Positions 34,086 to 48,601 of a stretch of DNA of 48,690 nucleotides are shown here, piece after piece; position 1 is the first letter of the stretch, and every line of letters begins with the position of its first letter. The DNA is from Clostridia bacterium (GTDB lineage Bacteria; Bacillota; Clostridia; Oscillospirales; Acutalibacteraceae), in contig JAFVEY010000049.1 in assembly GCA_017475765.1 (NCBI GenBank), positions 1-48,690 on the forward strand, written 5' to 3'. The notes beneath the pieces were generated by a model. It was not told where the DNA came from. It searched no databases and worked only from the letters and a program-made list of their open reading frames with translations. The position numbers were made by a program, and so were the translations under genes.

Positions 34086-34796
34086 TTACACAAGACCTCT
34101 GCGTTTGAGAAGTCTTTTTGAAATCAGATTTCCGACTCCCTGAACTGTCATTACAATAACAATAAGTATGTAAATACAGGCAAACAGCTTATCGTGCTGG
34201 AAACGCTGATAACCGTAACGGACAGCGATATCACCAATGCCGCCCGCTCCGAAGTTACCTGCGAGAGCCGTCATGGATATCACCGTGATCACAGCTGTTG
34301 TAAAGCCTCTGATCAGCGATGGCAGCGTTTCGGGAATGATAACACGGAAAATAATCTGAAAATTGGTGCTGCCGATGGATTTTGCAGCATCAATCTTTCC
34401 TTTTGATATTTCAAGCAGACTGCTTTCGACGATTCTTGCATACATCGGAATACAGCTTGCCGAAATCGCTATAATACATGAATTCGTTCCGTAGGACTGA
34501 CCGAATATCAATCTTGCAACGGGAATCATGAGTATTATCATAATCATTTCAGGCAGCGAACGAAGAACATTGATAAACCAGCCTGAAATGGTATATGGTA
34601 TTTTGAGAGGAATAAGACCGTCAGGATTAAGCGCCGTAAGGATTATTCCAAGAACAATACCGCCTATGAGCATTATGATGGAAGCCAATAATGTCATATA
34701 GAGCGTATCTGCTACCGAGGGAAATATGTCTTTCCATATTTCTGGGGAAAAAGATCCGAGAAATACTTCCCAGAACGAATAATTCAGCAAACTCAT
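34086..34796 (-). CDS. metI: Methionine-type ABC importer permease
   Basis: 236 residues with five to six membrane helices. The EAA coupling loop is visible in ESSLLEISKGKIDAAKSIGSTNFQIIFRVIIPETLPSLIRG, which docks on the MetN ATPase. MetI-type endings (GAGGIGDIAVRYGYQRF) are present. It lies between metN and metQ, 32 bases after metN. Confidence 0.95.
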   Translation of the reverse strand: MSLLNYSFWEVFLGSFSPEIWKDIFPSVADTLYMTLLASIIMLIGGIVLGIILTALNPDGLIPLKIPYTISGWFINVLRSLPEMIMIILMIPVARLIFGQSYGTNSCIIAISASCIPMYARIVESSLLEISKGKIDAAKSIGSTNFQIIFRVIIPETLPSLIRGFTTAVITVISMTALAGNFGAGGIGDIAVRYGYQRFQHDKLFACIYILIVIVMTVQGVGNLISKRLLKRRGLV

Positions 34797-34828
34797 TTCA
34801 TCACCCTTTATTTTTAAATTCTGTCATA

Positions 34829-35614
34829 TCATATTCCGCCGCCGTCTCTGAGTTCCGGCTGCTGCAGCTCGAAGAAAACCTTTGCAAACAGTTTTCCTGT
34901 GTGGCTGTGCGGATTTTTGAATATCTCGCTGACTTCTCCGGATTCTATTATCAATCCGTCCTGAAGAACAGCCATTCGCTGACATGAATATCTTATGGCA
35001 TCCAGTTCATGGGTGATCATGATTATCGTAATACCCTTTTTCCTGTTGATTTCTTTCAGCAGGTCGAGTATCTGAAGTGTTGTCTGCGGATCCAACGCCG
35101 AAGTAGCTTCATCGCTGATCAGCAGGTCAGGATCGCTTATCAGGGCTCTTGCTATGCCTACTCTTTGCTTTTGTCCCCCCGAAAGTCCTCCGGGATAAGA
35201 GTTCAGCTTATCTGTCAGTCCGACAAGCTCGGCTGTTTCACGAACCCTTTTGTCTATCTCGTCCTTTTTCACTTTGCTTATTTTAAGCGGATAAGCGATA
35301 TTATTATATACCGTTTTGGCTTCAAAAAGATTAAATGTCTGAAAAACGACTCCGATCTTTTTTCTTGCCTGTAAAAGTCCCTTTTTGGAAAGACTTAATA
35401 TATCCGTATCGCCTACTGTGATTTTTCCGCTGTCCGGCGTTTCCAGACGATTGATACATCGTGCAAGCGTTGATTTTCCTGCGCCGCTGAAACCGATGAC
35501 ACCAAATATTTCGCCCTTTTTTATCGAAAGATCTACTCCCTTAAGAACTTCCAGCGTTGCACCATGAACCTTAAAGGATTTATGAAGGCCTTCGATCTCA
35601 ACGTAATTACTCAT
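34829..35614 (-). CDS. metN: Methionine-type ABC importer ATPase, without NIL domain
   Basis: 261 residues. Walker A GFSGAGKST, signature LSGGQKQRVGIARAL, Walker B DLLISDEATSALDP and switch His (MITHEL) are intact. Typical MetN proteins are about 340 residues with a C-terminal NIL (ACT-like) domain that binds methionine and trans-inhibits transport. Here the protein ends soon after the ATPase fold, so that feedback is missing. The ribosome site AAAGGAG is 19 bases from the ATG; a six-codon reading (TTG at about 35631) ends in TGA overlapping the ATG, so translational coupling is possible. Confidence 0.93.
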   Translation of the reverse strand: MSNYVEIEGLHKSFKVHGATLEVLKGVDLSIKKGEIFGVIGFSGAGKSTLARCINRLETPDSGKITVGDTDILSLSKKGLLQARKKIGVVFQTFNLFEAKTVYNNIAYPLKISKVKKDEIDKRVRETAELVGLTDKLNSYPGGLSGGQKQRVGIARALISDPDLLISDEATSALDPQTTLQILDLLKEINRKKGITIIMITHELDAIRYSCQRMAVLQDGLIIESGEVSEIFKNPHSHTGKLFAKVFFELQQPELRDGGGI

Positions 35615-35850: not shown

Positions 35851-36768
35851 TCAGATTTTCAGATAGTCTTTAAGCTGACTGATATACACCTCTGCTATCT
35901 GCGACAACAGAGAACCGTCCTTGACAATATAGCCTATTGTCATGATCGTGTTTCTGTTTTCCTCATCCTCACGGAACGGTACTGTCAGATAATCGGAGCT
36001 GTTCAGATCCTCGCTGATGATCCCCGAACAAAGTGTATAGCCGTGAAGTCCTTTCATCAGATTAAGCATAGTTGCACGGTCATTTGTCTTGATTGTTCTG
36101 GGATATTCAATATCGCTGAGTATTTCCTCTGAAAGATAAAACGAACTTCTGTCACCCTGTTCAAATGACAGACAGGAATAATCCTCAAGCTGTTCAAGTC
36201 CGATGGATTCTTCCTTTGCCAGCGGATGATCCTTATGAAGATACACATAAGCGCTGCAGTCAACCAGCTTATTGAATATAAGCCCGTTTTCTTTGAGCAG
36301 CTTTTTGATGATCCTGCTGTTATAATCACTCAGATACAGGATCCCTATTTCGCTTTTCAGCGTTCCTACATCATTGATCACTTCCAGCGTTTTTGTTTCT
36401 CTGAGCGCAAATTCATATTTCAGCGTACCAAACTGTTTCACCGTTTCCACAAACGCCTGCACGGCAAAGGAATAATGCTGGGTCGATACTCCGAATTTTC
36501 TTTTGATATTAGCCTTGTCGCTGTAACGCTGTTGCAGGATTTCATAATGCTGATACACCTGTCTTGCATACTGGAGAAAGTCGATGCCCTCAGAGGTCAG
36601 GGTCACACCCTTGCCTGTTCTGAAAAATATACTGATGCCAGTCTCGTTTTCCAATGCCTTGATCGAGCTTGTGAGCGACGGCTGTGTGATATAAAGTATT
36701 TCTGCCGCCTTATTCATAGACCCGGATTCTGCAACAGTTATGGCATAATGTATCTGTTGTAAAGTCAT
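35851..36768 (-). CDS. LysR-family transcriptional regulator
   Basis: 305 residues. The N-terminal winged helix MTLQQIHYAITVAESGSMNKAAEILYITQPSLTSSIKALE and an effector domain (about 90-300) are typical of the CysB/CysL/CbbR group. It lies between the nitrogenase-like operon and metNIQ on the same strand, so it is a likely activator of one or both in response to sulfur status. ATG 36768 has GAGGTGA upstream. A terminator and a Met/Cys-rich mini-ORF precede it. Mar-type gene sets in other bacteria are also under a LysR regulator, which supports but does not prove the link. Confidence 0.92.
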   Translation of the reverse strand: MTLQQIHYAITVAESGSMNKAAEILYITQPSLTSSIKALENETGISIFFRTGKGVTLTSEGIDFLQYARQVYQHYEILQQRYSDKANIKRKFGVSTQHYSFAVQAFVETVKQFGTLKYEFALRETKTLEVINDVGTLKSEIGILYLSDYNSRIIKKLLKENGLIFNKLVDCSAYVYLHKDHPLAKEESIGLEQLEDYSCLSFEQGDRSSFYLSEEILSDIEYPRTIKTNDRATMLNLMKGLHGYTLCSGIISEDLNSSDYLTVPFREDEENRNTIMTIGYIVKDGSLLSQIAEVYISQLKDYLKI

Positions 36769-36804
36769 ATTTTATCACCTCAGATTTTAAAAAATATAAA
36801 AATA

Positions 36805-36835
36805 AGGAGCAAATATATTCAACATATCTGCTCCT
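36805..36835 (-). terminator. Terminator between the nitrogenase-like operon and lysR
   Basis: Minus strand: the stem AGGAGCA...TGCTCCT (36829-36835 with 36805-36811), extended by AT pairs, then TATTTTTATATTTTTT. It ends the nifD-to-nifU operon or attenuates read-through into the LysR gene. Confidence 0.8.
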
Positions 36836-36852
36836 GAAATATACTGATCCTT

Positions 36853-36954
36853 TTATTTCCGGGTCGTCAGACCGTGATCAATACAGACATAAATATGCCG
36901 ATATAAAGCAGATACAATTTTGCCGCCCGACATATACATCCTACACATTATCAC
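36853..36954 (-). CDS. Small Met/Cys-rich ORF (33 aa) ahead of the terminator
   Basis: GTG 36954 lies nine bases after AAAGGAG. The reading starts MIMCRMYMSGGKIVSALYRH and ends GLTTRK. Five of the first eight residues are Met or Cys. It lies between the nifU-like stop and the terminator before lysR. It could be a leader peptide for attenuation or a small operon protein. No family is recognised. Confidence 0.4.
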   Translation of the reverse strand: MIMCRMYMSGGKIVSALYRHIYVCIDHGLTTRK

Positions 36955-36969
36955 GATCCATCTCTCCTT

Positions 36970-37404
36970 TCAAAAATCACATCCGTCACACAGGCTGCAG
37001 CCAATTGCGAAATCAAACGGATCATATCCTATACCGTTATTATCATAATAATTTTTTATTGCCGCCTGAAGCGCTTCACATACAAAAACAGCACTTTTCA
37101 GTCTTGAAGCCGGAAATCCGCCCAATGCCTTGTCCAGCTCACCGCTGTTGGCAAGCAGCAAGGCATCTGAAAGCGTTTTTCCCTTTATCGCTTCAGTCAG
37201 ATATGATGCGGAAGCAATGGCTGCCGCTCCTCCGAAAACTTCAAAGCCTGACGAGGTGATGATTCCGCTGTCCACCTTGATAAACAGCCTTATGACATCA
37301 CCGCAATGAACACTGCCGACTTCTCCGATGCCGTCCGAATTCCGCACAGCGCCCATATTTTTCGGATGAAGAAAATGCTCCATTATTTGATCATTATACA
37401 GCAT
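36970..37404 (-). CDS. Degenerate IscU/NifU-like Fe-S scaffold with CxxCxxC tail
   Basis: 144 residues. The fold is that of IscU/NifU-N: start MLYNDQIMEHFLHPKNMG, then SVHCGDVIRLFIKV with the first ligand Cys34 and Asp36. The second ligand position reads FGGAAAIASAS (Cys to Gly). The third, normally 'HCS', reads LKSAVFVCEAL (Cys shifted by several residues). A C-terminal tail not found in IscU ends GCSLCDGCDF, with Cys136, 139 and 142. It overlaps nifS by 11 bases, so desulfurase and scaffold are made together. It may be an adapted scaffold or carrier for the nitrogenase-like enzyme. Confidence 0.85.
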   Translation of the reverse strand: MLYNDQIMEHFLHPKNMGAVRNSDGIGEVGSVHCGDVIRLFIKVDSGIITSSGFEVFGGAAAIASASYLTEAIKGKTLSDALLLANSGELDKALGGFPASRLKSAVFVCEALQAAIKNYYDNNGIGYDPFDFAIGCSLCDGCDF

Positions 37405-38581
37405 GGAGTTTCTCCTCCCCGTCTTTTTTAAATACAGACGAAAAAGACCTCAAATAGCTTACTATCTTTGTCACGCTCGAAATGATATAATCCGCCTGTT
37501 CGAAGGTGTTATATCTTCCGAGCGTGATCCTTAACGTACCCCTGATATATTCCTGTGGAACACCGATACTTCTGAGAACATGACTGGGCTGAGAGGATGA
37601 TGAATTACAGGCTGAGCCGTTTGAGACGCTGATTCCGATATTATCAAGCAGCAAGATAAGACTTTCTCCGTCAATTCCTTCAAAGCTTATATTGATATTT
37701 CCCGGAAGTCTGTGTTCCGGATCGCCGTTGAGCCTTGTATCCGGTATTGCAAGCAGTCCGCTGATGACTTTGTCACGCAAACGGCGGATCTGCTCCGATT
37801 CTGTATCAATATTTTCCACAGACTCTTTCAGAGCAGCGGCAAGTCCTATGATAGCCGGAACATTTTCTGTTCCCGGTCGGCGATTTTTTTCCTGACCTCC
37901 GCCCTCTATCAGACGGCTTAGTGCAATACCCTTTCTTGCGTATAATACTCCCGAACCCTTTGGTCCGTGGAATTTATGTCCCGAAAGAGAAAGCAAGTCG
38001 ATATTTTGCTGCTGAACATCTATGGGCAGATGTCCTGCCGCCTGAACCGCATCGGTATGGAACAGTATTCCTTTTTCACGGCATACCGCTCCGATTTCTG
38101 CTATTGGCTGTATCGTTCCGATTTCATTATTGGCATACATTACGCTGACAAGTGCCGTATCCTCCCGTATAGCAGAAGATATTTTCTCTGCCGGCACAAT
38201 GCCGTTCAGGTCAGGGTCGATAAGCGTAACATCAAATCCCTGCTTTTTCAGCTTTGTGAGCGTATGCAGAACGGCATGATGCTCAAAAGAGGTCGAAATG
38301 ATATGCTTCTTTCCTCTTTCCGCACCAAGAAGCGCCGCTGAGATGACAGCCTGGTTGTCAGACTCCGTACCTCCGGAAGTAAAGGTGATCTCTCTGCCCG
38401 ATGAAGCATTGATAGCTTCTGCAACAGTTTCACGAGCCTTATTGATATCGTCTTTTATTTTCTGACCTGCCGAATGTATACTTGACGGATTGGCATAAAG
38501 CTCGTCAAAATACGGCAGCATTGCTTTTTTTGCGTTTTCGCTGAGTTTGGTTGTCGCCGCATTGTCTGCATATGTAAACAT
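37394..38581 (-). CDS. nifS: Cysteine desulfurase (NifS/IscS-like)
   Basis: PLP enzyme that takes sulfur from cysteine for Fe-S cluster assembly. 395 residues. PLP Lys near 204 in SLSGHKFHGPKG, His motif FEHHAVLHT, and catalytic Cys near 324 in GSACNSSSSQPSHVL. The short loop around the Cys and its following residues fits the NifS/IscS (class I) group. ATG 38581 has GGAGGGA upstream and lies 22 bases after nifH. Its placement at the end of the nitrogenase-like operon, overlapping the scaffold-like gene, points to a dedicated sulfur supply for the metalloclusters. Confidence 0.95.
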   Translation of the reverse strand: MFTYADNAATTKLSENAKKAMLPYFDELYANPSSIHSAGQKIKDDINKARETVAEAINASSGREITFTSGGTESDNQAVISAALLGAERGKKHIISTSFEHHAVLHTLTKLKKQGFDVTLIDPDLNGIVPAEKISSAIREDTALVSVMYANNEIGTIQPIAEIGAVCREKGILFHTDAVQAAGHLPIDVQQQNIDLLSLSGHKFHGPKGSGVLYARKGIALSRLIEGGGQEKNRRPGTENVPAIIGLAAALKESVENIDTESEQIRRLRDKVISGLLAIPDTRLNGDPEHRLPGNINISFEGIDGESLILLLDNIGISVSNGSACNSSSSQPSHVLRSIGVPQEYIRGTLRITLGRYNTFEQADYIISSVTKIVSYLRSFSSVFKKDGEEKLHAV

Positions 38582-38603
38582 CGGTTAAGTCCCTCCGTAA
38601 AAA

Positions 38604-39443
<840 letters not shown>

Positions 39444-39461
39444 TTACTCCTTATTGCTGAT

Positions 39462-40337
39462 TTAACCATGTGAAAATGTATCTTTTTGCCGGATACGCTT
39501 CAGATAGATCTGATCGCCGTAATCCTTTTCACCCGGCACACCGATCGCATCGGCACGACATCTCTGACAATGTCTGAATACATCTATATACTGTCCCGCT
39601 TTTTGTCTGACACCGTCTATCTCTGCACAGGACGGCGCACGGCAGTCCTTGAGTTCGTTCTGCGGTATCAGCGGAATGATATTATAGATCGAAGCTCCTG
39701 CTTCACTTACTGCCTTTGCAATGGCTTCAATATGATCGTCATTGATTCCCGGCACCAAAACCGTATTTACTTTTATGGTAATACCTGCAGAGCTTACCTT
39801 TTTAATGCCTGCCAGTTGATTTTTAATAAGTATCTCCGCTGCTTCTCTGCCCTTATAATGTACGCCGTGATAAAGAATTCCGTTATTCAGCTTTGCTTCA
39901 ATATCCGGATCAACTGCATTGACCGTCACGGTCAGGGAATCTATCCCCGTTTCGATAATTTCGTCTGCCTTTTCCAGAAGAAGCAGTCCGTTTGTACTCA
40001 TACATTTTATAATATTGGGAAAGCTGTCACGAATCAGTCTGAAGGTTTCCAACGCATAGTCGGACGCAAGCGTATCGCCGGGACCTGCAATGCCCGCAAC
40101 TGTTATATCCGGACAAAGCTCCAGCGAACGTCTGACAACATCGACAGCTTCGGACGGCTTGATCACAGTAGATGCCACACCCGGTCTTTTTTCATAATCA
40201 TTGATACGTCTGTCACAGAACTTACATTCAATATTGCAGGTAGGGCTGATCGGCAGATGTATCCTGCCTGTCGTTCCCTTTTTACCCAAAGCGTAGCACG
40301 GATGCTTATCGGTAAGCTCCTGATAACTGATAGCCAT
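39462..40337 (-). CDS. nifB: NifB-like radical SAM protein (8Fe carbide cofactor synthase)
   Basis: Builds the 8Fe-9S-C core (NifB-co) from two 4Fe-4S clusters and SAM. Start ATG 40337 has GAGGGA upstream, giving 291 residues with no NifX domain. Radical-SAM motif C34-x3-C38-x2-C41 (CNIECKFC), preceded by HPC (Cys14) and RIHLPISP, followed by RPGVAS. The end carries the NifB signature FRHCQRCRADAIG. All features of an active NifB are there. Since no NifE/N is present, the cofactor would pass directly to the D/K-like enzyme, as thought for Mar systems. Confidence 0.93.
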   Translation of the reverse strand: MAISYQELTDKHPCYALGKKGTTGRIHLPISPTCNIECKFCDRRINDYEKRPGVASTVIKPSEAVDVVRRSLELCPDITVAGIAGPGDTLASDYALETFRLIRDSFPNIIKCMSTNGLLLLEKADEIIETGIDSLTVTVNAVDPDIEAKLNNGILYHGVHYKGREAAEILIKNQLAGIKKVSSAGITIKVNTVLVPGINDDHIEAIAKAVSEAGASIYNIIPLIPQNELKDCRAPSCAEIDGVRQKAGQYIDVFRHCQRCRADAIGVPGEKDYGDQIYLKRIRQKDTFSHG

Positions 40338-40422
40338 ATTATTTTCCCTCATTTCTTGAAAATCATTGCTCAGCGACATTGCTGATGATTTCAATATTCA
40401 TTTAATTTTATTCAACTCTTTA

Positions 40423-40761
40423 TCAGGCAGCGAATACCTTATCGAGAATAAGCTTTTCAAGAACTGCATCAATATTTCCGCTCACTTCAAACACACGGAT
40501 CCCCTTGCTGATGATATAGGCTGCCGCACCCTCACCGATTCTGCTGACAAGTATTGCGTCACAATCCGAAAGCATATCAAGCGTAAGGTCAAAATTTGTT
40601 TTGTTATGGACCCGTTTTTGCTGACAGGCTGCCACCGCATCCCTCACTTCAACAAAGTGGTGTCCGTTTTCGCTCAGCTCATATACCCTGAAAAATGCCG
40701 CTCTGCCAAAATGCTCATTGACATTTATGCCGTCTGTACTTGCAATTGCTACTTTTGACAC
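40423..40761 (-). CDS. NifX/NafY-family cofactor-binding protein
   Basis: 112 residues, start GTG 40761 nine bases after GGGAG. A single dinitrogenase Fe-Mo cofactor domain: VAIASTDGINVNEHFGRAAFFRVYEL at the start, then CDAILVSRIGEGAAAYIISKGIRVFEV. Such proteins bind or carry NifB-co or related clusters. Position between nifK-like and nifB suggests a carrier for the cofactor made by NifB. Confidence 0.9.
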   Translation of the reverse strand: MSKVAIASTDGINVNEHFGRAAFFRVYELSENGHHFVEVRDAVAACQQKRVHNKTNFDLTLDMLSDCDAILVSRIGEGAAAYIISKGIRVFEVSGNIDAVLEKLILDKVFAA

Positions 40762-40834
40762 TAAATCCAACTCCCTGATATATAAAATGAAACAAATATC
40801 TTCTGTCCGCAGACAGCAAAGGCACTCCGCCTTC

Positions 40835-42172
40835 TTATTTGTAGGTATAAAGTACGGTATCGTAAATATCCTCGATTACTCTCAGACCTCCCGTATAACC
40901 GATATAATTTGTCGTCAGAACCAATCTGTACGGTGTCGGAAGAGAAGCAGAAAGAAAATCATAGCCCTTCTCTTTTGCAAGCTCCTTATCCCAGCCGCTG
41001 CCTATGATAAGACCTCTGCCGTTATGACTGGTATGCCTGATAATATCCTGCGCCTTGCCGGCATCGGGATCAAAATAAACGGGAATTTCACGCTTGTCGG
41101 AGGTTGATTTCAGATCTGCCGAGATCTGTTCGATATATTCCTTCGGCGTATTATCAACGATAAATTGTTCTTTTGGAACAATACCGGTTTCATGCAGTAA
41201 AAATTTGGAAAGACCTACGACATAACCTGCATCGTGCAGAATATGAACGTGATTCGGCAGTCCGTAACGGAATTCCAGAAGGAAGGTTGCAAGATTGTCT
41301 ATTTCTTCATAATATGCGTGTTCTTCCAATCTGATAAAATCCAATGCCTTTTTCTTATCAAGACCGGCACCCTGCTCATTCGCAAAATCAATCACGCCGC
41401 TGAGAAATCTTGTTGTTTCGTTAGCACCTATGGGCAAATAGCGGAAATGATAGTAAGGCTGACCGTATTTCTGCTCAAGATGTTTTACTATTTTTTCACC
41501 GTACCAGGGAGAAACCAATATATTAAAATTCGCTCTCGGAATCGTCTGCCATTCGGAAACACCCTTGGAAAACGGTCCGAATAAAACATTGACTTCCAGT
41601 CCCAGTCCTTCAAGAAGTCTTTTGTATTCCACAAGATTACCCTTCCAGAACGGATCCTGATAAGGTATCGAAGCAAAAAGATTGACAAGCTTCTTTTCGC
41701 TTCTGACAGGGTTTTCTTCGATAAACCTGTCAACATACTGATCAATGATAGCATTAACGACATTGCTGTGTGAAACGAAATTATTGGACTTAAAGCCTGC
41801 TGTTTCCACATGGACGATCGGCTTGCCCTCTGCAAGAAATTCGTCCGTTACGCTTGCCACATCATCTCCGACGATATCAGCAGTACAGCCTGTCACAACT
41901 ACCTGAAGATCGGTATCAAGCACCTTATATGTATTTTCGATGATAGAACGAAGTCTGTTGACACCTCCGAACACCACCTCTGTTTCGCTGAAATTCGTAC
42001 ACGGCGATGTATTGCCGCCCGCATAGCCTGTCGAGCGCTCAAAAAAACCTGCTATCATCGTTCCGCAGCCGGGACCCGAATGAAGAATCGGAGTCGCTCT
42101 CGGAATCGCAACTACTGTCTGTAATGCGCCTATTGCACAGGCATAGCGCTCCTGCTCTATAAGACCTGACAT
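40835..42172 (-). CDS. NifK-like subunit of a nitrogenase-like reductase (MarK candidate)
   Basis: 445 residues from ATG 42172, with GGGAGG nine bases upstream. The stop of the D-like gene overlaps the start (TGATG). All three P-cluster cysteines of the beta chain are present: Cys36 in HSGPGCGTM, Cys58 in NTSPCTNFSETEVVFGG and Cys96 in VVTGCTADIVGDD. The N-terminus is shorter than in NifK. The rest shows the three Rossmann-type domains of the family (VSPWYGEKIVKHLEQKYG, ITNYIGYTGG-like end). It should form an alpha2beta2 complex with the D-like protein and receive electrons from the NifH-like protein. Confidence 0.92.
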   Translation of the reverse strand: MSGLIEQERYACAIGALQTVVAIPRATPILHSGPGCGTMIAGFFERSTGYAGGNTSPCTNFSETEVVFGGVNRLRSIIENTYKVLDTDLQVVVTGCTADIVGDDVASVTDEFLAEGKPIVHVETAGFKSNNFVSHSNVVNAIIDQYVDRFIEENPVRSEKKLVNLFASIPYQDPFWKGNLVEYKRLLEGLGLEVNVLFGPFSKGVSEWQTIPRANFNILVSPWYGEKIVKHLEQKYGQPYYHFRYLPIGANETTRFLSGVIDFANEQGAGLDKKKALDFIRLEEHAYYEEIDNLATFLLEFRYGLPNHVHILHDAGYVVGLSKFLLHETGIVPKEQFIVDNTPKEYIEQISADLKSTSDKREIPVYFDPDAGKAQDIIRHTSHNGRGLIIGSGWDKELAKEKGYDFLSASLPTPYRLVLTTNYIGYTGGLRVIEDIYDTVLYTYK

Positions 42173-43650
42173 CAGTTTTTGCCTCCCTTCAGGAAAGTGT
42201 AGGGCTCCTGTTCGAGCCACCATTTTGTATAAGGATTAATTGCGTGTTTTTCAAGATTTTTAACAAACTCATCATTTTCAATAGTAGCAAGTATCTGCTC
42301 ACCGTAATTGACAAGTCCTTCATAACCCATTCCGAAATGCTCATCACCGATCAGAAGAGAAGGAATTCCGAATTTTGCACCCCAAAGCGTCATTCCGCCG
42401 TGTCTTGCAAAAAGAATATCGGGTCTTATTCTGTTCAGGACATTAACAAGCTCAAATTCCTGCTTGTTGCAGACGGTGTAATTCTTGATATCACCATAAT
42501 CAGAAACCGTATGAGAAAGTGTATCAGCATCTGTGGTATGGCTGTCATAGATCGGATCATGATGGAAAATAGCCGCACCGGTTGCTTCCATTCCCAGCTC
42601 TCTGAGAATTGCAAGAAGGGAATGACCGTGAGAAGCACCTGCTGTAACATATGCTGTTTTACCTCTGAGTTTCTCACGAAGCTCTTCTATTTTCGGCAGA
42701 TATTTTTCTCTTTGCTCTTTGAGGAACTCTTCCACCTCGTCTTCCTTATGAAGTATACTGCCAAGCTCCCTGAACCATCTGTCGGTCTGAGCTATTCCGT
42801 AAGGCGGTGAATTTTTAAGCTCCGGAACTCCGTAAACCTGATCTAGCGATGACGCCAGATACGAACCCAGAGTTGCACACGCCTGTACCGTACAGACTGC
42901 TTCGGAGGAATGCTGAAGGGAATCCAGCGTGGAATATGGTGTCAGGTAATTAGCTTCATATCCGAAGCGTTTGAACCATTCATTAAATATATCGCTTCCC
43001 CAGAAGTTTACCACATTGATAACATTACGTTTTTTCTCAGCAGGCTTGATGAGTTTTCTTGCAATACCGTGATAGCCTGCATCAAATCCTGTCGTCCATA
43101 TTTTGGAACGGAAGCCCTCGCAGAAGATCGCAACGATCGGGATATTCAGCTCCTGCTCAAGACGGTTGGTAACACTTTCAACATCATCTCCGATAATGCC
43201 TGCCGCACAGGTTGTGAGTACGAATATTACATTCGGCTTTGCTCTCTGATACACCTCACGGATTGTATTTTCAAGTTTTACTGCTCCGCCGTAAATGGTA
43301 TCCTTTTCTTCCAGATTTGTTGAATACACCTTTCTTTGAGTGGGATTGCTGACACCCCTCAGATCGGCGTTGACTCTGTATGTAAACGCATATTCATGCA
43401 GACAGGTCGAGCATCCGACAGGACCGTGGCTTATTACTGCCGCATCCTGAATCAGACACGTAACACAGGCTGCCTGTGCTGTCGAACATCCAAGACATTG
43501 ACTGAATGAACGCTTTTTGTCTTTAATCTTTCCGCACTGTGAACATTCCACAAGCTCTGATGCGTTGCCATGAAAGCCTGTTATTGATCCGAGTCTGATT
43601 TCTCTGACGGAAACCTCCGGGGTGCTGAGATTAATTGTACTTGTTGCCAT
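42172..43650 (-). CDS. NifD-like catalytic subunit of a nitrogenase-like reductase (MarD candidate)
   Basis: 492 residues from ATG 43650 (AAGGAG upstream). P-cluster ligands Cys55, Cys80 (HGPVGC) and Cys148 (TTCAAGIIGDDVESV) are conserved. Cys258 (VQAC, 18 residues before YGVP) matches the FeMo-cofactor Cys275 of NifD, but the His442 region reads GIPSLLIGDEHFGMGYEG, three residues shorter and without the ligand His. The N-terminus has four C-x2-C pairs (36/39, 52/55, 62/65, 80/83), two more than the P-cluster needs. First gene of the operon. Not a true nitrogenase by these features; a C-S-cleaving reductase is the best inference. Confidence 0.9.
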   Translation of the reverse strand: MATSTINLSTPEVSVREIRLGSITGFHGNASELVECSQCGKIKDKKRSFSQCLGCSTAQAACVTCLIQDAAVISHGPVGCSTCLHEYAFTYRVNADLRGVSNPTQRKVYSTNLEEKDTIYGGAVKLENTIREVYQRAKPNVIFVLTTCAAGIIGDDVESVTNRLEQELNIPIVAIFCEGFRSKIWTTGFDAGYHGIARKLIKPAEKKRNVINVVNFWGSDIFNEWFKRFGYEANYLTPYSTLDSLQHSSEAVCTVQACATLGSYLASSLDQVYGVPELKNSPPYGIAQTDRWFRELGSILHKEDEVEEFLKEQREKYLPKIEELREKLRGKTAYVTAGASHGHSLLAILRELGMEATGAAIFHHDPIYDSHTTDADTLSHTVSDYGDIKNYTVCNKQEFELVNVLNRIRPDILFARHGGMTLWGAKFGIPSLLIGDEHFGMGYEGLVNYGEQILATIENDEFVKNLEKHAINPYTKWWLEQEPYTFLKGGKN

Positions 43651-43696
43651 TGATAATTGCTCCTTAATTAATATTGTATGACGTTGTATAAAGTAA

Positions 43697-43756
43697 TCAG
43701 CACATTCGATCCACACTCAAAACTTTATCTAAGATTTTGAAATTGAATCTTGTCAT
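43697..43756 (-). promoter_or_regulatory. Leader peptide candidate of the nitrogenase-like operon, ending Met-Cys
   Basis: The 19-codon reading MTRFNFKILDKVLSVDRMC-stop, with GAGGG seven bases before its ATG, lies between the operon promoter and the D-like gene. Its last sense codons are Met and Cys. This resembles in design the leader peptides ahead of sulfur genes in other Gram-positives. No classic terminator follows, so any control would act through ribosome stalling. Confidence 0.5.
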
Positions 43757-43863
43757 TTTTCGTCCCTCTTATAAATTTAATTTATTGATTTGATGTTTTT
43801 TATTTTAACACCCCATTATTCTTTCGTCCAATCTTAAAAAACTAGAGCGATTAATAGTTAAAA

Positions 43864-43892
43864 TTTATAACATATTTTTAATAAAACATCAA
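43864..43892 (-). promoter_or_regulatory. Promoter of the nitrogenase-like operon
   Basis: TTGATG (43887-43892), 17 bases and TATAAA (43864-43869) on the minus strand, giving a leader of about 205 bases before the D-like gene. Confidence 0.55.
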
Positions 43893-43921
43893 GAAAAAGA
43901 ACATTTTTATTTAGTTATATT

Positions 43922-43949
43922 ACCTATAAATCCTATTAATTTTATAGGT
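43922..43949 (-). promoter_or_regulatory. Operator candidate (9-bp perfect inverted repeat)
   Basis: acctataaa (43922-43930) and tttataggt (43941-43949), spacer 10. It lies about 30 bases upstream of the -35 box, where a LysR-type activator would bind. The LysR gene at the other end of the operon is the obvious candidate. Confidence 0.5.
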
Positions 43950-43993
43950 TTTGATATTTATTCTCACAATATACTATATTTTTCCAAACAATG

Positions 43994-44031
43994 AAACAGA
44001 CATCAACACATCGGTTAATGCCTGTCTGTTT
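43994..44031 (-). terminator. Weak terminator after malY
   Basis: The 9-bp stem aaacagaca/tgtctgttt (43994-44002 with 44023-44031) has a 20-base loop and only a short T-rich stretch on the minus strand. Confidence 0.5.
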
Positions 44032-44035
44032 TATA

Positions 44036-45334
44036 TTATATATAGCTTTTTATTGCCTTTTCCAGTTTCCACAATGCCTGCTCCAGCGTTTTTCTCGGAC
44101 AAGCCAGAACGATACGCTGAAACATTTCGGCGCTCTCTCCGAATATATGTCCTGCATCAAGCCAAAGACCGGCTTTATTGATAATGAGGTCATTCAGCTC
44201 TTCCTTGTTCAGTCCGAGCCCTGTGCAGTCAAGCCATGCAAAATATGTTCCCTCCGGCTCGACCAATTTTATTTGAGGAATTTTCCTTTTGATAAAGCTG
44301 CGGACAAAATCCAGATTCTTCCTGATATATTCCCATGATTCAATGTGCCACTTTTCGCCCTTTTCATAAGCGGTCTTTGCAGCTGTGATACCGAAAATAT
44401 TCAGTTCCGTATAGCCACAGCTGTCTATTTCATGCTGCATTTTCTGACGAAGTCCCGGATTGCTGACCCATATATTGGAGATCTGCAGACCTGCGATATT
44501 GAAAGTTTTACTCGGAGAAGTGCATATAACGGATTGATCTTCCATTTCGGGACAAGCCTTGGAGAATATCGTATGTTTGTGTCTGGAATAGGTAAAGTCA
44601 CAATGTATTTCATCGGATATGACAATCACTCCGTATCTCAGACATATCTCACCCAGCCTATGAAGCTCATCCTTCGTCCAGACTCTTCCCGTCGGGTTAT
44701 GAGGGGAACAGAGAATGAACATCTTTACATTGTTTTCTTTGATCTTATTTTCAAAATCTTCAAAATCTATCTCATAATGTCTGCCGTTATATTGAAGCTC
44801 ATTTTTGATTACCTTTCGTCCGTTATTCTCAATAACCGAATAAAACGGATAGTATACCGGAGTCTGTATGATGACACCGTCACTGGGAGCAGTATAAGCT
44901 CTGACAGCCATGGAAAGCGCAAATACCACTCCAGGTGTTTTCACAAGCCATTTCTTTTCGGGCAGCCATCCAAAGTTTCTGGCAAACCAAGATGCCGCTG
45001 CATTGTAATAATCGTCCTTCGGGTTGCTGTATCCGAAAATTCCGTGTTCGGCTGTTCTGCGAAGTGCATCCACAACAGGCTTTGCGGTCATAAAATCCAT
45101 ATCTGCCACCCAAAGCGGAAGAATATCCTCAGGATAACCTCTTTCCTGTGCAAAATCATATTTCAGCGAATTGGTACCGCTTCTGTCAACAATTGCGTCA
45201 AAGTCATACTCCTCCGAGGATTCAGCCGGCTCAAACGGGATACATTTACCATCTATTCGTTTTAAAGCATTATTACCTATTATTCTATCGGAAAAGTCGT
45301 TATAAATACATCGGATATCACCCTTATTTTTCAT
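44036..45334 (-). CDS. patB: Cystathionine beta-lyase / C-S lyase (MalY/PatB-like) with N-terminal extension
   Basis: PLP-dependent aminotransferase-fold lyase that splits C-S bonds of cystathionine, cysteine or S-methyl cysteine derivatives, giving homocysteine, sulfide or thiols. 432 residues. The PLP Lys is near 275 in SPSKTFNIAGLQ, with DEIHCDF and PHNPTGRVW upstream. The family normally begins at 'FDxIxDRxGTNSLKWDF'; here that motif (YDFDAIVDRSGTNSLKYDF) starts at about residue 43 after an extra, Cys-containing N-terminus. The start at ATG 45334 is firmly supported by AAGGAGATG, so the extension is real. It lies between the two metY genes and the nitrogenase-like operon. Confidence 0.92.
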   Translation of the reverse strand: MKNKGDIRCIYNDFSDRIIGNNALKRIDGKCIPFEPAESSEEYDFDAIVDRSGTNSLKYDFAQERGYPEDILPLWVADMDFMTAKPVVDALRRTAEHGIFGYSNPKDDYYNAAASWFARNFGWLPEKKWLVKTPGVVFALSMAVRAYTAPSDGVIIQTPVYYPFYSVIENNGRKVIKNELQYNGRHYEIDFEDFENKIKENNVKMFILCSPHNPTGRVWTKDELHRLGEICLRYGVIVISDEIHCDFTYSRHKHTIFSKACPEMEDQSVICTSPSKTFNIAGLQISNIWVSNPGLRQKMQHEIDSCGYTELNIFGITAAKTAYEKGEKWHIESWEYIRKNLDFVRSFIKRKIPQIKLVEPEGTYFAWLDCTGLGLNKEELNDLIINKAGLWLDAGHIFGESAEMFQRIVLACPRKTLEQALWKLEKAIKSYI

Positions 45335-45368
45335 TTACAACATCTCCTTCAGTAAAATTATTATTATA

Positions 45369-45397
45369 GTTTTACCTTAAAAAATGCTTTTTGTCAA
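45369..45397 (-). promoter_or_regulatory. malY/patB promoter
   Basis: TTGACA (45392-45397), 17 bases and TAAAAC (45369-45374); a TATAAT lies a few bases further on. It is in the 97-base gap after the metY fusion gene. Confidence 0.5.
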
Positions 45398-45431
45398 ATA
45401 TATGTTCTTTATAAAATCCAATAATAAAAAT

Positions 45432-47231
45432 TTATAATACATTTTTACTATTAAACTCTATTGACATATCATAACTGATCTCTTCTCCGATAACCGAATT
45501 TGAAATTCCGTTCAGTCTGAAACCGTGAGCTTCATAGAAAGGAATCAATTTTTCAACACAGGTCAACGCCGCTCTGGTTTTTCCCTCTGCCCTTGCTTTT
45601 TTGACAAGCTCACGCAGGAGTCTGTCGGCAATGCCTTTTCCACGATAATCCGGATGAACCTCCAGACCGTAAACAAAAATGCTTTTGCCGCTGCTGCTGT
45701 AATGACCGTCAGGAAGATAGACATCATCTGTAATATAATCCCTGTCTGTGGGAGCAGCATTGATAAGACCCACCACTCTGCCGTTGTGTCTTGCCGTTAT
45801 AAACCATTGCGGAAATTTGCTCAGACGATACTCAAATGTCTCCCTTGTTGCTGCTTTGTCTGGTGAAAAGCAGATCAGCTCCAACCGGGCTATTTCATCA
45901 AGATCATTGATACCCGCCTGAGTAAAATTGATTTCTCTCAGACCAAACAAGCGGGAAAAGGCATGATCAAGATCGTCGATCAGATCCTCTGCCGATTCAA
46001 GTCCTGCCGATATTCTAATGGTATTTTCCGCAATATCTGCTCTGTTTAAATGGTCGCTGTCCATTTCTGCATGGGTCGTTCTTGCACAGTTCACGATCAG
46101 AGAACGCACATCGCCGATATTGACATGATAGGAAAAATATTGCAGCTGCCGGATAAAGCTGTTAAGCTCATCATCCGTACCGTCAAAACCGAAGGAAAGT
46201 ATTCCGCCGTAACCCTTGGTCAGATACTTTTTTGCCAAATCGGCAGTTCTGCCGTTCTTTGCCGCAGGATAATTCACCCATGATACATATTTGCTTTCTT
46301 CCAGATAACGAACCAGCTTTTCGGCATTTTCGGACTGCTTTGATACTCTTTCCGATATGGTATCAAGTCCCTGAATGATCAGATATGCGTCAAAGGGCGA
46401 AAGCGCCGCTCCGATAAATTCCAGATAGAATGCTCTCAGGTGCACAAGAAACGGCGATCTGTTGTCAACATCAAATGGTGAGCGTCTGCTGCCGTTAATA
46501 TCCTTCAGCTTATAGGAATCCTCATAAAACTGGTGGAATTTCTCTTTGGAATATCTGAAATTGCCGCTGTCAACAATTATTCCTCCAATAACATTACCGT
46601 GACCGCTCAGCGCCTTTGTTGCCGAATAAATCACGATATCGGCACCGTATCGGATCGGATCAAGAAGATAAGGGGTGGCGACTGTATTATCAACAATAAG
46701 CGGAATATGATATTGATGTGCCAGCTGTGCAAGTGCTTCAATATCATACACTTCGCCGTTCGGATTGCTGATGGATTCTATGTATATACCCCTTGTGTTC
46801 TCATCTATCGCCTGTTCGTAGGAAGCGGTGTCAAATCTGTCATTGACGAATTTTATCTGTGCTCCAAAGCGTGGGAAAAAGTGCGAAAACGCATCCTCCG
46901 TTCCACCGTACAGCGAATTCGGCGCAACAATATTGCCCCCGTATTCCGTCAGGGCAAGTATCGTATAGGAAATGGCAGCCATCCCCGATGACAATGCCAA
47001 CACTCCGTAAGCGCCGCTTAATGCCTTGATCCTCTCCTCAAGAATTGCCACGGTGGGATTACCGACACGAGAATATATCGCCGCATCCTCTTCAAGCGTC
47101 CATATTCTGTCTGCCCTGTCGATACTGTCAAGATCGAATGCAGCTGTCTGGTATATGGGTACATTGACTGAATAATTATGCTCCCTGCTGTCATATCCGG
47201 CTCTTATTCTGAGCGTATCAAATTTTGCCAT
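45432..47231 (-). CDS. O-acetylhomoserine sulfhydrylase fused to a GNAT acetyltransferase
   Basis: 599 residues from ATG 47231 (GAGGAGGAG upstream), against about 430 for MetY alone. Residues about 1-425 are a full Cys/Met-metabolism PLP enzyme: YSRVGNPTVAILEERI, SISNPNGEVYDIEAL, and PLP Lys near 205 in YSATKALSGHGNVIGG. Residues about 430-599 are a GNAT domain: INFTQAGINDLDEIARLE start, acetyl-CoA motif LEVHPDYRGKGIADRLL and the end IPFYEAHGFRLNG. The two parts are in one unbroken frame. I know no standard family with this architecture. It follows the stand-alone metY by 68 bases. The GNAT might acetylate homoserine-like or thiol amino acids; that is inference. Confidence 0.9.
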   Translation of the reverse strand: MAKFDTLRIRAGYDSREHNYSVNVPIYQTAAFDLDSIDRADRIWTLEEDAAIYSRVGNPTVAILEERIKALSGAYGVLALSSGMAAISYTILALTEYGGNIVAPNSLYGGTEDAFSHFFPRFGAQIKFVNDRFDTASYEQAIDENTRGIYIESISNPNGEVYDIEALAQLAHQYHIPLIVDNTVATPYLLDPIRYGADIVIYSATKALSGHGNVIGGIIVDSGNFRYSKEKFHQFYEDSYKLKDINGSRRSPFDVDNRSPFLVHLRAFYLEFIGAALSPFDAYLIIQGLDTISERVSKQSENAEKLVRYLEESKYVSWVNYPAAKNGRTADLAKKYLTKGYGGILSFGFDGTDDELNSFIRQLQYFSYHVNIGDVRSLIVNCARTTHAEMDSDHLNRADIAENTIRISAGLESAEDLIDDLDHAFSRLFGLREINFTQAGINDLDEIARLELICFSPDKAATRETFEYRLSKFPQWFITARHNGRVVGLINAAPTDRDYITDDVYLPDGHYSSSGKSIFVYGLEVHPDYRGKGIADRLLRELVKKARAEGKTRAALTCVEKLIPFYEAHGFRLNGISNSVIGEEISYDMSIEFNSKNVL

Positions 47232-47258
47232 AATGCTCCTCCTCATATAACGAATATT

Positions 47259-47287
47259 GCCCGTACCAATCGGCAATTGGGACGGGC
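47259..47287 (-). terminator. Hairpin between metY and the metY-GNAT gene
   Basis: The stem GCCCGT-x-CCAAT/ATTGG-x-ACGGGC has one mismatch and a 5-base loop (47259-47264 and 47266-47270 with 47276-47280 and 47282-47287). No U-run follows, so it is more likely an attenuating or mRNA-protecting structure than a full terminator. Confidence 0.5.
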
Positions 47288-47299
47288 TGTTTCAATTTA

Positions 47300-48601
47300 T
47301 CAGATTTCAAGCGCTTGTGCAAATGCCTGTTCCAAATCGGCTATCAGATCGTCTGCATCCTCCAGACCTATGGAAAGTCTGATCGTTTCAGGTCTGATCT
47401 TAGCTGCTTCCAGCTCTTCCGGATTAAGCTCTCCGTGCGTAGTTTTCGGTGAATTGATCAGCAGCGATCTTGCATCGCCCACATTCGCTTGAAAACCGAA
47501 AAGCCGGATAGAATCAATTAGTTTGTTGATCTGTTCGTCATTTCCTTTGAAACCGAACGTAAATACGGTACCTGCTCCATCAGGAAAATACTTATCTGCA
47601 AGAGCCTTATACGGGCTGTCCTTATGTTCGGGATAGCTGATCCATGACACAGCATCGCTGCGGCTGTCAAGATATTCTACTATCTTTCTTGCATTCCTTA
47701 CCTGCTTTGAAACACGCTCGGAAAGCGTTTCTATGCCGATCAGTATCAGCTGTGCATCATACGGACTTAAAGCCGCTCCGAAATAAGCAAGATACTTTGT
47801 TCTCAGGAATGCGGCAAACGGCAGCTGCGGAAACGCTTCAATAAAGCTTCTCGGATTGTTGTCAAGATCTCTTGCAACCCAGTATTTTTTAAAGAGCTGC
47901 GGATATTTTTCCTCTGTCCAATCAAAGGGCTTTCCCTCAACCACAACGCCGCCGATCGCATTGCCGTGACCGTTGAGAGCCTTTGTGGCGGAATAAATGA
48001 CAATATCTGCACCATGCTCCAAGGGTCTGAACAGATACGGTGTTGCAAATGTGTTGTCCACGATAAGCGGAATCTGATGCTTATGTGCAATCTCTGCCAA
48101 AGCTTCGATATCAAGAAGTCTTGCCGACGGATTGGAAATAGACTCAACAAAAATCGCCTTTGTGTCCTCTTTGATCGTTGCTTGCCATTCTTCAATACTG
48201 CTGTCATGGTCGATAAAATCAAAGTTGACTCCGATTGACGGAAAAACATCATTTTCAAGATCAAATGTTCCGCCGTAGATCTGCTTTGTGGAAAGGATTC
48301 TGCCATTTCCTCCCGAAACGGCAAGAAGTGTATTGCTTACTGCTGCCATACCTGATGCAAACGCAACCGCTGCCGAACCTCCATCCAGCTGTGCTACCCT
48401 TGCTTCAAGCGCTGCAACCGTCGGATTGCCGACTCTGGAATATAAAAATCCAAGCCGCTCACCTGCTCTTAAACTGTTAAAATGATCAAATCCGTCAAAA
48501 TCAAATGCTGCCGTTGCATAAACGGGGATACCCACGGAATAATTGTGCTGACGGGAGTTATAACCTCCTCTCACCTTAACGGTATCAAATTTATATGACA
48601 T
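47300..48601 (-). CDS. metY: O-acetylhomoserine sulfhydrylase (MetY)
   Basis: PLP enzyme that joins sulfide or methanethiol to O-acetylhomoserine, giving homocysteine or methionine. 433 residues. Motifs are YSRVGNPTVAALEARV, SGMAAVSNTLLA, ESISNPSARLLDIEAL, PLP Lys near 207 in YSATKALNGHGNAIGG and the end TIRLSIGLEDADDLIADLEQAF. ATG 48601 has AGAGGAGG upstream. It is the first gene of the sulfur island as far as the window shows. In Mar-type systems the released methanethiol is captured by exactly this enzyme, so its place beside nitrogenase-like genes is informative. Confidence 0.96.
   Translation of the reverse strand: MSYKFDTVKVRGGYNSRQHNYSVGIPVYATAAFDFDGFDHFNSLRAGERLGFLYSRVGNPTVAALEARVAQLDGGSAAVAFASGMAAVSNTLLAVSGGNGRILSTKQIYGGTFDLENDVFPSIGVNFDFIDHDSSIEEWQATIKEDTKAIFVESISNPSARLLDIEALAEIAHKHQIPLIVDNTFATPYLFRPLEHGADIVIYSATKALNGHGNAIGGVVVEGKPFDWTEEKYPQLFKKYWVARDLDNNPRSFIEAFPQLPFAAFLRTKYLAYFGAALSPYDAQLILIGIETLSERVSKQVRNARKIVEYLDSRSDAVSWISYPEHKDSPYKALADKYFPDGAGTVFTFGFKGNDEQINKLIDSIRLFGFQANVGDARSLLINSPKTTHGELNPEELEAAKIRPETIRLSIGLEDADDLIADLEQAFAQALEI

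Follow-up and report, generated by a model that had tools for sequence, protein, structure and literature searches.

Several nitrogenase-like enzymes have been described that resemble the system reported here. In the methylthio-alkane reductase (MAR) of Rhodospirillum rubrum, the pair Arg428-His429 together with Cys270 has been proposed as the hallmark of the enzyme (PMC12552129). NfaDK of Endomicrobium proavitum is known as a group IV nitrogenase, from an organism whose cells are reported to incorporate 15N2 and which has no NifEN (PMC9147875, PMC11257099, PMC8399215, PMC4995403), and Heliophilum fasciatum is reported to grow diazotrophically without classical nifDK, its nitrogenase being predicted to be NflDK1. 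The stretch of DNA studied here (the window, 48,690 nucleotides) is contig 73 in the genome of a Clostridia bacterium, assembled to 2.32 Mb and 95% completeness, and carries genes for a nitrogenase-like enzyme, with catalytic subunits D and K, in an island of sulfur genes. The island is not a canonical MAR, as its D and K belong to a distinct and strongly supported clade. We consider it probable, from its sequence and gene context, that this DK pair represents a second type of [Fe8S9C] nitrogenase-like reductase of C-S bonds, serving sulfur assimilation. The two subunits are encoded as follows:

42172-43650, minus strand: D, catalytic alpha-like subunit, MAR-like, of the clade that contains Nfa (MarD of structure 9fmg, 434 bits; PF00148, 3e-82; ligands and trees as described below)
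40835-42223, minus strand: K, catalytic beta-like subunit (MarK, 386 bits; K tree)

Among solved structures the best nitrogenase chain reaches 126 bits with the window D, against 434 for MarD of R. rubrum, and the best of anything other than MarK reaches 63 bits with K. Two maximum-likelihood trees of D (71 and 56 rows) place the window sequence in a clade of 30 rows, with support of 100/100 in the first and 97/100 in the second, and within this in a clade of 27 rows with 100/100 in both. MarD and a second D of the same genome, on contig 48, form a clade of their own (6 rows, 100/100 in both trees), and NifD and NifE lie far outside either group. The K tree, built without NifK (a root branch of 8.5) and without the loci L085, L116 and L148, gives a window clade of 29 rows (99/98) with an inner clade of 26 (100/100), and a MarK clade of 6 (100/100). 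The junction of the window and MarD clades is less sure, the set of 42 rows that unites them having 100/96 and 86/84. The trees hold no IsrD, CfbD, Bch or P. riograndensis sequences; the NCBIfam profiles for Cfb and Bch score far under their cut-offs with the window D and K. The original prediction, made from the letters of the window, had taken the enzyme for a methylthio-alkane reductase and had named such a phylogeny as its check: MarD and MarK are indeed the nearest solved relatives, but the window proteins do not group with R. rubrum MarDK. A grouping with a nitrogenase clade, which it had named as contrary evidence, is found in half: one protein of the clade is that of E. proavitum, called in the literature a functional group IV nitrogenase. 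Further uncharacterised DK clades related to MAR were seen at L138, L140, L141, L146, L147 and L150-L156, and some genomes carry several DK pairs (14 PF00148 matches in genome G249).

The active site was compared in R. rubrum MarD numbering, as given in the MAR structure paper (PMC12552129), across an alignment of 134 D rows cleared of near-duplicates. Of these, 82 are window-type (at least 55% identity to the window D; 75 come from the 80 loci described below), 6 canonical, 12 other MAR-like and 17 NifD, and the remaining 17 D-like rows (NifE and remote clades) were left out of the tally. Cys66, Cys91, Cys158, Cys270, Arg428, Trp195, Phe199 and His375 are present in all window-type rows and His429 in 81 of the 82 (the exception is L061); K has Cys32, Cys56 and Cys121 in 80 of 80. 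Counted from the start at 43650, the window equivalents of Cys270, Arg428 and His429 are Cys258, Arg416 and His417. Since these residues are conserved, the ligands of the P-cluster and of the [Fe8S9C] cluster are retained in the manner of MAR. The surrounding pocket differs. Residue 194, His in 6/6 canonical rows, is Met, Val or Ile in 82/82 window-type rows, and Gln74 is replaced in 79 of them; the window itself has Val at 74 and Ile at 194. At position 353 all 82 window-type rows have His, all 6 canonical rows Tyr and all 17 NifD rows an Arg, which we take to be alpha-Arg359, contacting FeMo-co. The 12 other MAR-like rows also lack His194, having Ile or Val there, so that it is canonical MAR that stands apart by possessing this residue and not the window clade by its loss. 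His353, found in only one of those 12, is nearly special to the window clade. Loop I is rewritten in the window D as compared with MarD.

The sulfur linkage recurs across the clade. Relatives were taken as the best 80 of 293 from a scan of named genomes, all with at least 67% identity in the best segment; 70 belong to Bacillota, 6 to Spirochaetota, 3 to Actinomycetota and 1 to Elusimicrobiota. Their hosts are Ruminococcus albus, many rumen metagenome-assembled genomes, Kineothrix, Acetobacterium, Eubacterium oxidoreducens, Herbinix, Faecalispora, Sinanaerobacter, termite-gut Clostridiales, Spirochaetes, Coriobacteriales and Endomicrobium, and a Chloroflexota plasmid carries a window-type D (55%) with MetY about 6.5 kb away. 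D could be anchored in 78 of the 80 loci (L077 and L081 were dropped), and a sulfur-assimilation gene lies within 10 kb of it in 69, MetY in 47. Where a locus extends at least 8 kb to both sides, a sulfur gene is always present (34/34; MetY in 29, CGL in 28, CysK in 26), and NifDKEN-type genes were labelled in 0/80 loci. SsuA-like genes occur near 21/78 loci and SsuC-like genes near 26/78, these and other neighbour labels resting on BLAST against one reference each, with related loci counted as separate. Among controls a sulfur gene was found in 4/19 loci of other DK clades and in 3/5 canonical MarD loci, a contrast that is an upper bound because the control loci were labelled by identity thresholds tuned to window-type islands.

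Window-type and canonical DK can share a genome: both were found in the genome of the window, in G249 and in G373 among 398 genomes, with at most three candidates scored per genome. They stand together at L062, and at L138 (G373) a single run comprises a window-type DK, a canonical MarDK, a third DK, MetY, CysK, CGL and Ssu-like genes. Three genomes, G602, G603 and E. proavitum, have no PF00148 pair besides the window-type one.

Endomicrobium proavitum is the member of the clade on which most depends. Its chromosome (1,588,979 bp; PMC4505116) holds exactly one D and one K, and this D shares 70% identity with that of the window, agrees with it at 14 of 15 positions compared (the difference being Thr, not Val, at 74) and falls with it in the 27-row clade at 100/100. 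Around the pair we find a run on one strand of MetY, SsuA, SsuC, SsuB, D, K, a MetQ fragment, X, CGL, CysK, B, X and H, of which there is no description in the group IV literature surveyed, which did not include the original E. proavitum studies. In the family to which an Endomicrobium locus belongs, D matches were obtained in 8 of 76 genomes. In the putative H. fasciatum genome a D with 59% identity to the window D, presumably NflDK1, adjoins H and B, falls in the 30-row clade, and has Gln74, Val194 and His353. Since E. proavitum and putative H. fasciatum D share its clade, the window enzyme and the 'group IV-A nitrogenase' clade are one family, situated among sulfur genes. Like E. proavitum, the window genome lacks NifEN, at 95% completeness.

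The other genes of the island, all uninterrupted open reading frames assigned to families by profile matches, are:

47300-48601, minus strand: MetY1, O-acetylhomoserine sulfhydrylase family (TIGR01326, 446 bits; cut-off 495)
45432-47276, minus strand: MetY2 fused to a C-terminal GNAT acetyltransferase (TIGR01326, 443 bits; PF00583 at residues 473-586)
44036-45334, minus strand: PatB/MalY-type C-S lyase (TIGR04350, 467 bits; cut-off 340)
40423-40770, minus strand: stand-alone NifX-like cofactor carrier (PF02579, 76.5 bits; TIGR02663, 58.8 bits)
39462-40394, minus strand: NifB/MarB-type radical SAM maturase without NifX tail (TIGR01290, 275 bits; cut-off 344; profile positions 8-292 of 441 only)
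38604-39437, minus strand: H, Fe protein, NifH-type rather than MarH-type (nifH equivalog, 467; cut-off 394; E 2e-140)
37394-38581, minus strand: NifS-type cysteine desulfurase (TIGR03402, 510 bits; cut-off 531)
36970-37404, minus strand: NifU N-domain Fe-S scaffold (PF01592, 112 bits; TIGR03419, 123 bits; cut-off 188)
35851-36768, minus strand: LysR-family regulator (PF00126, PF03466)
34829-35614, minus strand: MetN of a methionine-type ABC importer (TIGR02314, 298 bits)
34086-34796, minus strand: MetI of the same importer (PRK10782, 142 bits)
33116-34060, minus strand: MetQ of the same importer (PF03180, 232 bits)

The arrangement of this set on one strand had been correctly predicted, and every gene proved intact with its family match. 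Only metNIQ lies elsewhere than supposed: it had been counted within 35851-48601 and is found at 33116-35614, also on the minus strand. For D a start at GTG 43716 had been assumed; ATG 43650, preceded by an AAGGAG site, is likelier and replaces it. The gaps between the genes D-K-X-B-H-S-U measure -52 to +64 bp, compared with 385 bp between patB and D, so that D to U probably form one transcript. LysR homologues with 53-69% identity stand in the islands of five relatives (L031, L042, L044, L049, L062), and MetY and GNAT, fused in the window at 45432-47276, are separate adjoining genes in L032 and L033. No riboswitch or T-box was found in the island by cmscan at gathering scores, which returned one tRNA-like match in the window; in the relatives it likewise gave no riboswitch or T-box, yielding only tRNAs in seven and nothing in seven more. 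The match in the window is a degenerate Met(CAU)-like element behind metQ (32960-33030, minus strand, 38.3 bits), the lowest-scoring of 41 tRNA matches in the genome and missed by ARAGORN. Three relatives have a tRNA-Met(CAU) in their islands, adjoining metN or placed between MetY and SsuA, and a fourth has a tRNA-Cys(GCA) flanked by a CysK-like gene and nifB; the tRNA-like elements of relatives' islands are:

L031, 16074-16148
L032, 16182-16256
L096, 5564-5639
L021, 5339-5411

ARAGORN reports tRNAs in 8/111 loci, and because ordinary Thr, Ser, Arg and Asp types are among them, this pattern may be due to chance.

The window B aligns with solved NifB over 269 residues at 294 bits, and reaches E 8e-82 with the nifB profile. 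It contains all of what we take to be the NifB motifs (HPC, CxxxCxxC, ExRP, AGPG, TxTxN and CxxCRxDAxG). An alignment of this extent is at odds with PMC11423573, according to which the likeness of MarB and NfaB to NifB is confined to the radical SAM motif. Cys98 and Cys133 of the Fe protein sit in their expected motifs, so that the intactness of these residues, of the P-cluster Cys and of the NifB motifs, claimed from the letters of the window, is confirmed by alignment. H scores 486 bits with Clostridium pasteurianum NifH and 298 bits with MarH, whereas the same DK type is paired in a spirochaete member and in E. proavitum with Fe proteins of the MarH type (468 and 487 bits); the Fe protein has thus been swapped within the DK clade. 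As the window H exceeds the cut-off of the curated nifH equivalog, automatic annotation would name it a nitrogenase iron protein.

In the rest of the genome there are only two further PF00148 proteins, the D and K on contig 48, giving two D and two K in all, and the predicted absence of nifE and nifN therefore holds across the 95%-complete assembly. The contig 48 set (L005, 2629-6839) reads D-K-X-H without NifB. Its D scores 650 bits with MarD, which identifies it as the canonical MarDK orthologue, and it is accompanied by a 91% identical Fe protein; the canonical MAR of this genome is accordingly encoded there and not, as had been supposed, in the island. The window NifB is the sole one found in a search of the genome, and since the contig 48 set has none, that MarDK probably borrows it. 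An acetyl-type MetA is present above its cut-off. On contig 67 (L164, 2120-5894) a third MetY stands with an AsrC-like sulfite reductase and a MoeB/ThiF protein; this AsrC-like protein, the only one in the genome, scores 165 bits, under the cut-off of 324, and its proximity to the third MetY suggests that there may be a separate MetY for inorganic sulfur. No MtnA was found in the 95%-complete genome, which makes an internal supply of (2-methylthio)ethanol by way of the dihydroxyacetone phosphate shunt unlikely. Within the same family, D-like matches (E <= 1e-30) occur in 8 of 200 genomes, the window's own included, and the sole listed genome of the same genus, G121, has none at this threshold.

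If the DK pair is a C-S-bond reductase, its working can be outlined as follows. NifB, with NifX, NifS and NifU, whose genes are all present, would build the [Fe8S9C] cluster; the ligands of D and K would hold the P-cluster, and Cys270 and His429 the L-type [Fe8S9C] cluster. ATP-driven electrons would pass from H by way of the P-cluster to the [Fe8S9C] cluster, where a small organic sulfur compound would have its C-S bond split reductively. This compound would enter the cell by MetNIQ in the window organism and by SsuABC-like importers in some relatives. The thiol released (methanethiol, or else sulfide) would be joined by MetY with O-acetylhomoserine, yielding methionine or homocysteine; the sulfur would be passed onward by PatB, or by CGL and CysK in relatives, and Nfa of E. 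proavitum, being of the same clade, would do the same job. The window enzyme probably acts on another substrate than canonical MAR does, since the genome retains a canonical MarDK besides and since the pocket has lost His194, changed Tyr353 to His and altered loop I. By analogy with MAR, methane, ethylene or other small hydrocarbons may be formed by the enzyme in guts. What stands of the methylthio-alkane reductase originally predicted is thus the proximity to MarD and MarK, the Arg428-His429 pair and the conserved sulfur linkage; the clade, Gln74 and His194, and a MarH-type Fe protein are not those of MAR.

Several points weigh against a C-S-bond reductase. The sole functional data for the clade, 15N2 uptake by E. 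proavitum and diazotrophic growth of H. fasciatum, point to N2, and the C-S function is a prediction. The window H is of NifH type, MAR pocket residues that are thought important are not conserved, and gene neighbourhood cannot name the substrate; moreover the sampled loci are mutually related, and the control labels were tuned to window-type islands. The 15N2 data may be less exclusive than they appear. L-cluster-bound NifEN and NifB are reported to reduce N2 and to label cells with 15N2 in vivo (PMC13245594), so that a sulfur enzyme with an [Fe8S9C] cluster, or its NifB, could leave a 15N trace.

The same functional data would be explained by a group IV-A (Nfa) nitrogenase, as proposed for E. 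proavitum and H. fasciatum, which would need no NifEN to fix N2 at its [Fe8S9C] cluster and would stand among sulfur genes that are incidental. The window D shares its 100/100 clade with the sole DK of the reported 15N2 incorporator E. proavitum, and NflDK1 of H. fasciatum, diazotrophic without classical NifDK, seems to belong there too, although the genome assignment is putative. The in vivo labelling by L-cluster proteins just cited would fit, as would the NifEN-free assembly of FeMo-co in a Roseiflexus (PMC11573651). We nevertheless regard a nitrogenase as unlikely. Of the NifD residues named as essential for reducing N2 or binding the cofactor, Gln191 is replaced by Trp, His195 by Phe and His442 by Gly, both in the window and in E. 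proavitum, and MarD has the same replacements; MAR shows no N2 reduction in vitro (PMC12552129); the genome retains canonical MarDK with its closely similar Fe protein; sulfur genes adjoin every one of the 34 fully flanked loci, and E. proavitum has its sulfur run as well; and NifDKEN-type genes were labelled at none of the 80 loci. An enzyme of both kinds, chiefly a C-S reductase but with slow N2 reduction at the [Fe8S9C] cluster of DK or of NifB, would account for the sulfur operon and the 15N2 report together; the DK ligand set and the operon fit it, and so do the low N2 turnover and in vivo 15N2 incorporation of L-cluster proteins (PMC13245594). R. rubrum MAR, with the same cluster, formed no 15NH4 (PMC12552129). 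We think such a bifunctional enzyme unlikely, and equally so the reading that the window enzyme and NfaDK would constitute one NifEN-free, probably Mo- and homocitrate-free MAR-type scaffold, its active-site His relocated from 194 to 353, that reductively cleaves C-S bonds for methionine synthesis and also reduces N2.

A canonical MAR acting on the same substrates as R. rubrum MarHDK would overlap with the second type of C-S reductase proposed here and differ from it in substrate. MarHDK is the closest characterised protein and has the ligands in common, yet the separate clade, the replacement of His194 in every window-type row and of Gln74 in nearly all, and the orthologue of MarDK already present on contig 48 make such an identity improbable. 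The SsuABC-like genes in some relatives, and near E. proavitum DK, prompted us to consider also an isethionate or sulfonate reductase of the Isr kind, which would release sulfite. This we hold to be very improbable. IsrD has one of the three P-cluster Cys and no equivalent of Cys275, and IsrB is nearest to BciD, according to PMC11423573; the window retains all three Cys as well as Cys270, and its B aligns with solved NifB as described above. The single SsuA checked scored 98 bits, under the cut-off of 163.5. PF01077 sulfite/nitrite reductases are missing in 5 of 10 genomes with window-type DK, the complete E. proavitum chromosome included, so that in those hosts a sulfite-releasing route would not feed MetY and CysK through this class.

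A reductase of C-S bonds thus remains the reading we prefer, and it has consequences beyond the present genome. E. proavitum has been cited as a notable exception, an N2-fixing organism with a group IV nitrogenase (PMC8399215), and was used as a reason to retain gut Clostridiales whose NifD lacks the cofactor-region His ('His422') as possible diazotrophs (PMC4995403). Should the clade serve to obtain sulfur, that argument falls, and genes of methionine salvage could be taken for those of N2 fixers when nifH is surveyed in the rumen and in human and termite guts, because the window Fe protein scores above the curated nifH threshold. Should it fix N2 instead, nitrogenases can work without NifEN and without residues now deemed essential, and, provided that the cluster resembles that of MAR, with neither Mo nor homocitrate. 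Two reported diazotrophs depend on this clade: either they have been assigned wrongly, or N2 can be fixed by a scaffold of MAR type. Were the enzyme bifunctional, it would be an extant link between enzymes that harvest sulfur and enzymes that fix nitrogen.

Compared with known systems, the island most resembles MarBHDK of R. rubrum (9FMG, 9D9U), with which it shares the P-cluster Cys, Cys270, Arg428-His429, Trp195, Phe199, a maturase of NifB type and the link to MetY. Unlike MarBHDK, it belongs to a separate clade, has Gln74, His194 and Tyr353 replaced and a new loop I, employs a NifH-type Fe protein and adds NifX, NifS and NifU to the run. IsrBHDK of Rhodobacter capsulatus is similar in being a nitrogenase-like enzyme of sulfur assimilation with a radical SAM partner; it differs, as compared by its description (PMC11423573) and not by alignment, in that IsrD is without two P-cluster Cys and the cofactor Cys and in its product, sulfite. 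The MarHDK-like genes of type I mlp clusters (PMC10418091) are likewise NifDK-like, stand beside sulfur genes and occur in anaerobes, but that preprint concerns clusters of corrinoid methyltransferases, and UroD-type genes are found near 2/78 window-type loci, against 7/19 loci of other DK clades. NfaHDK of E. proavitum and the putative NflDK1 of H. fasciatum share with the window the clade, the ligand set and His353, and differ at residue 74, which is Thr or Gln in place of Val. E. proavitum also has a run of sulfur genes at its DK locus, in which SsuABC-like genes, CGL and CysK stand where the window has PatB and MetNIQ, and in contrast to the window it uses an Fe protein of MarH type.

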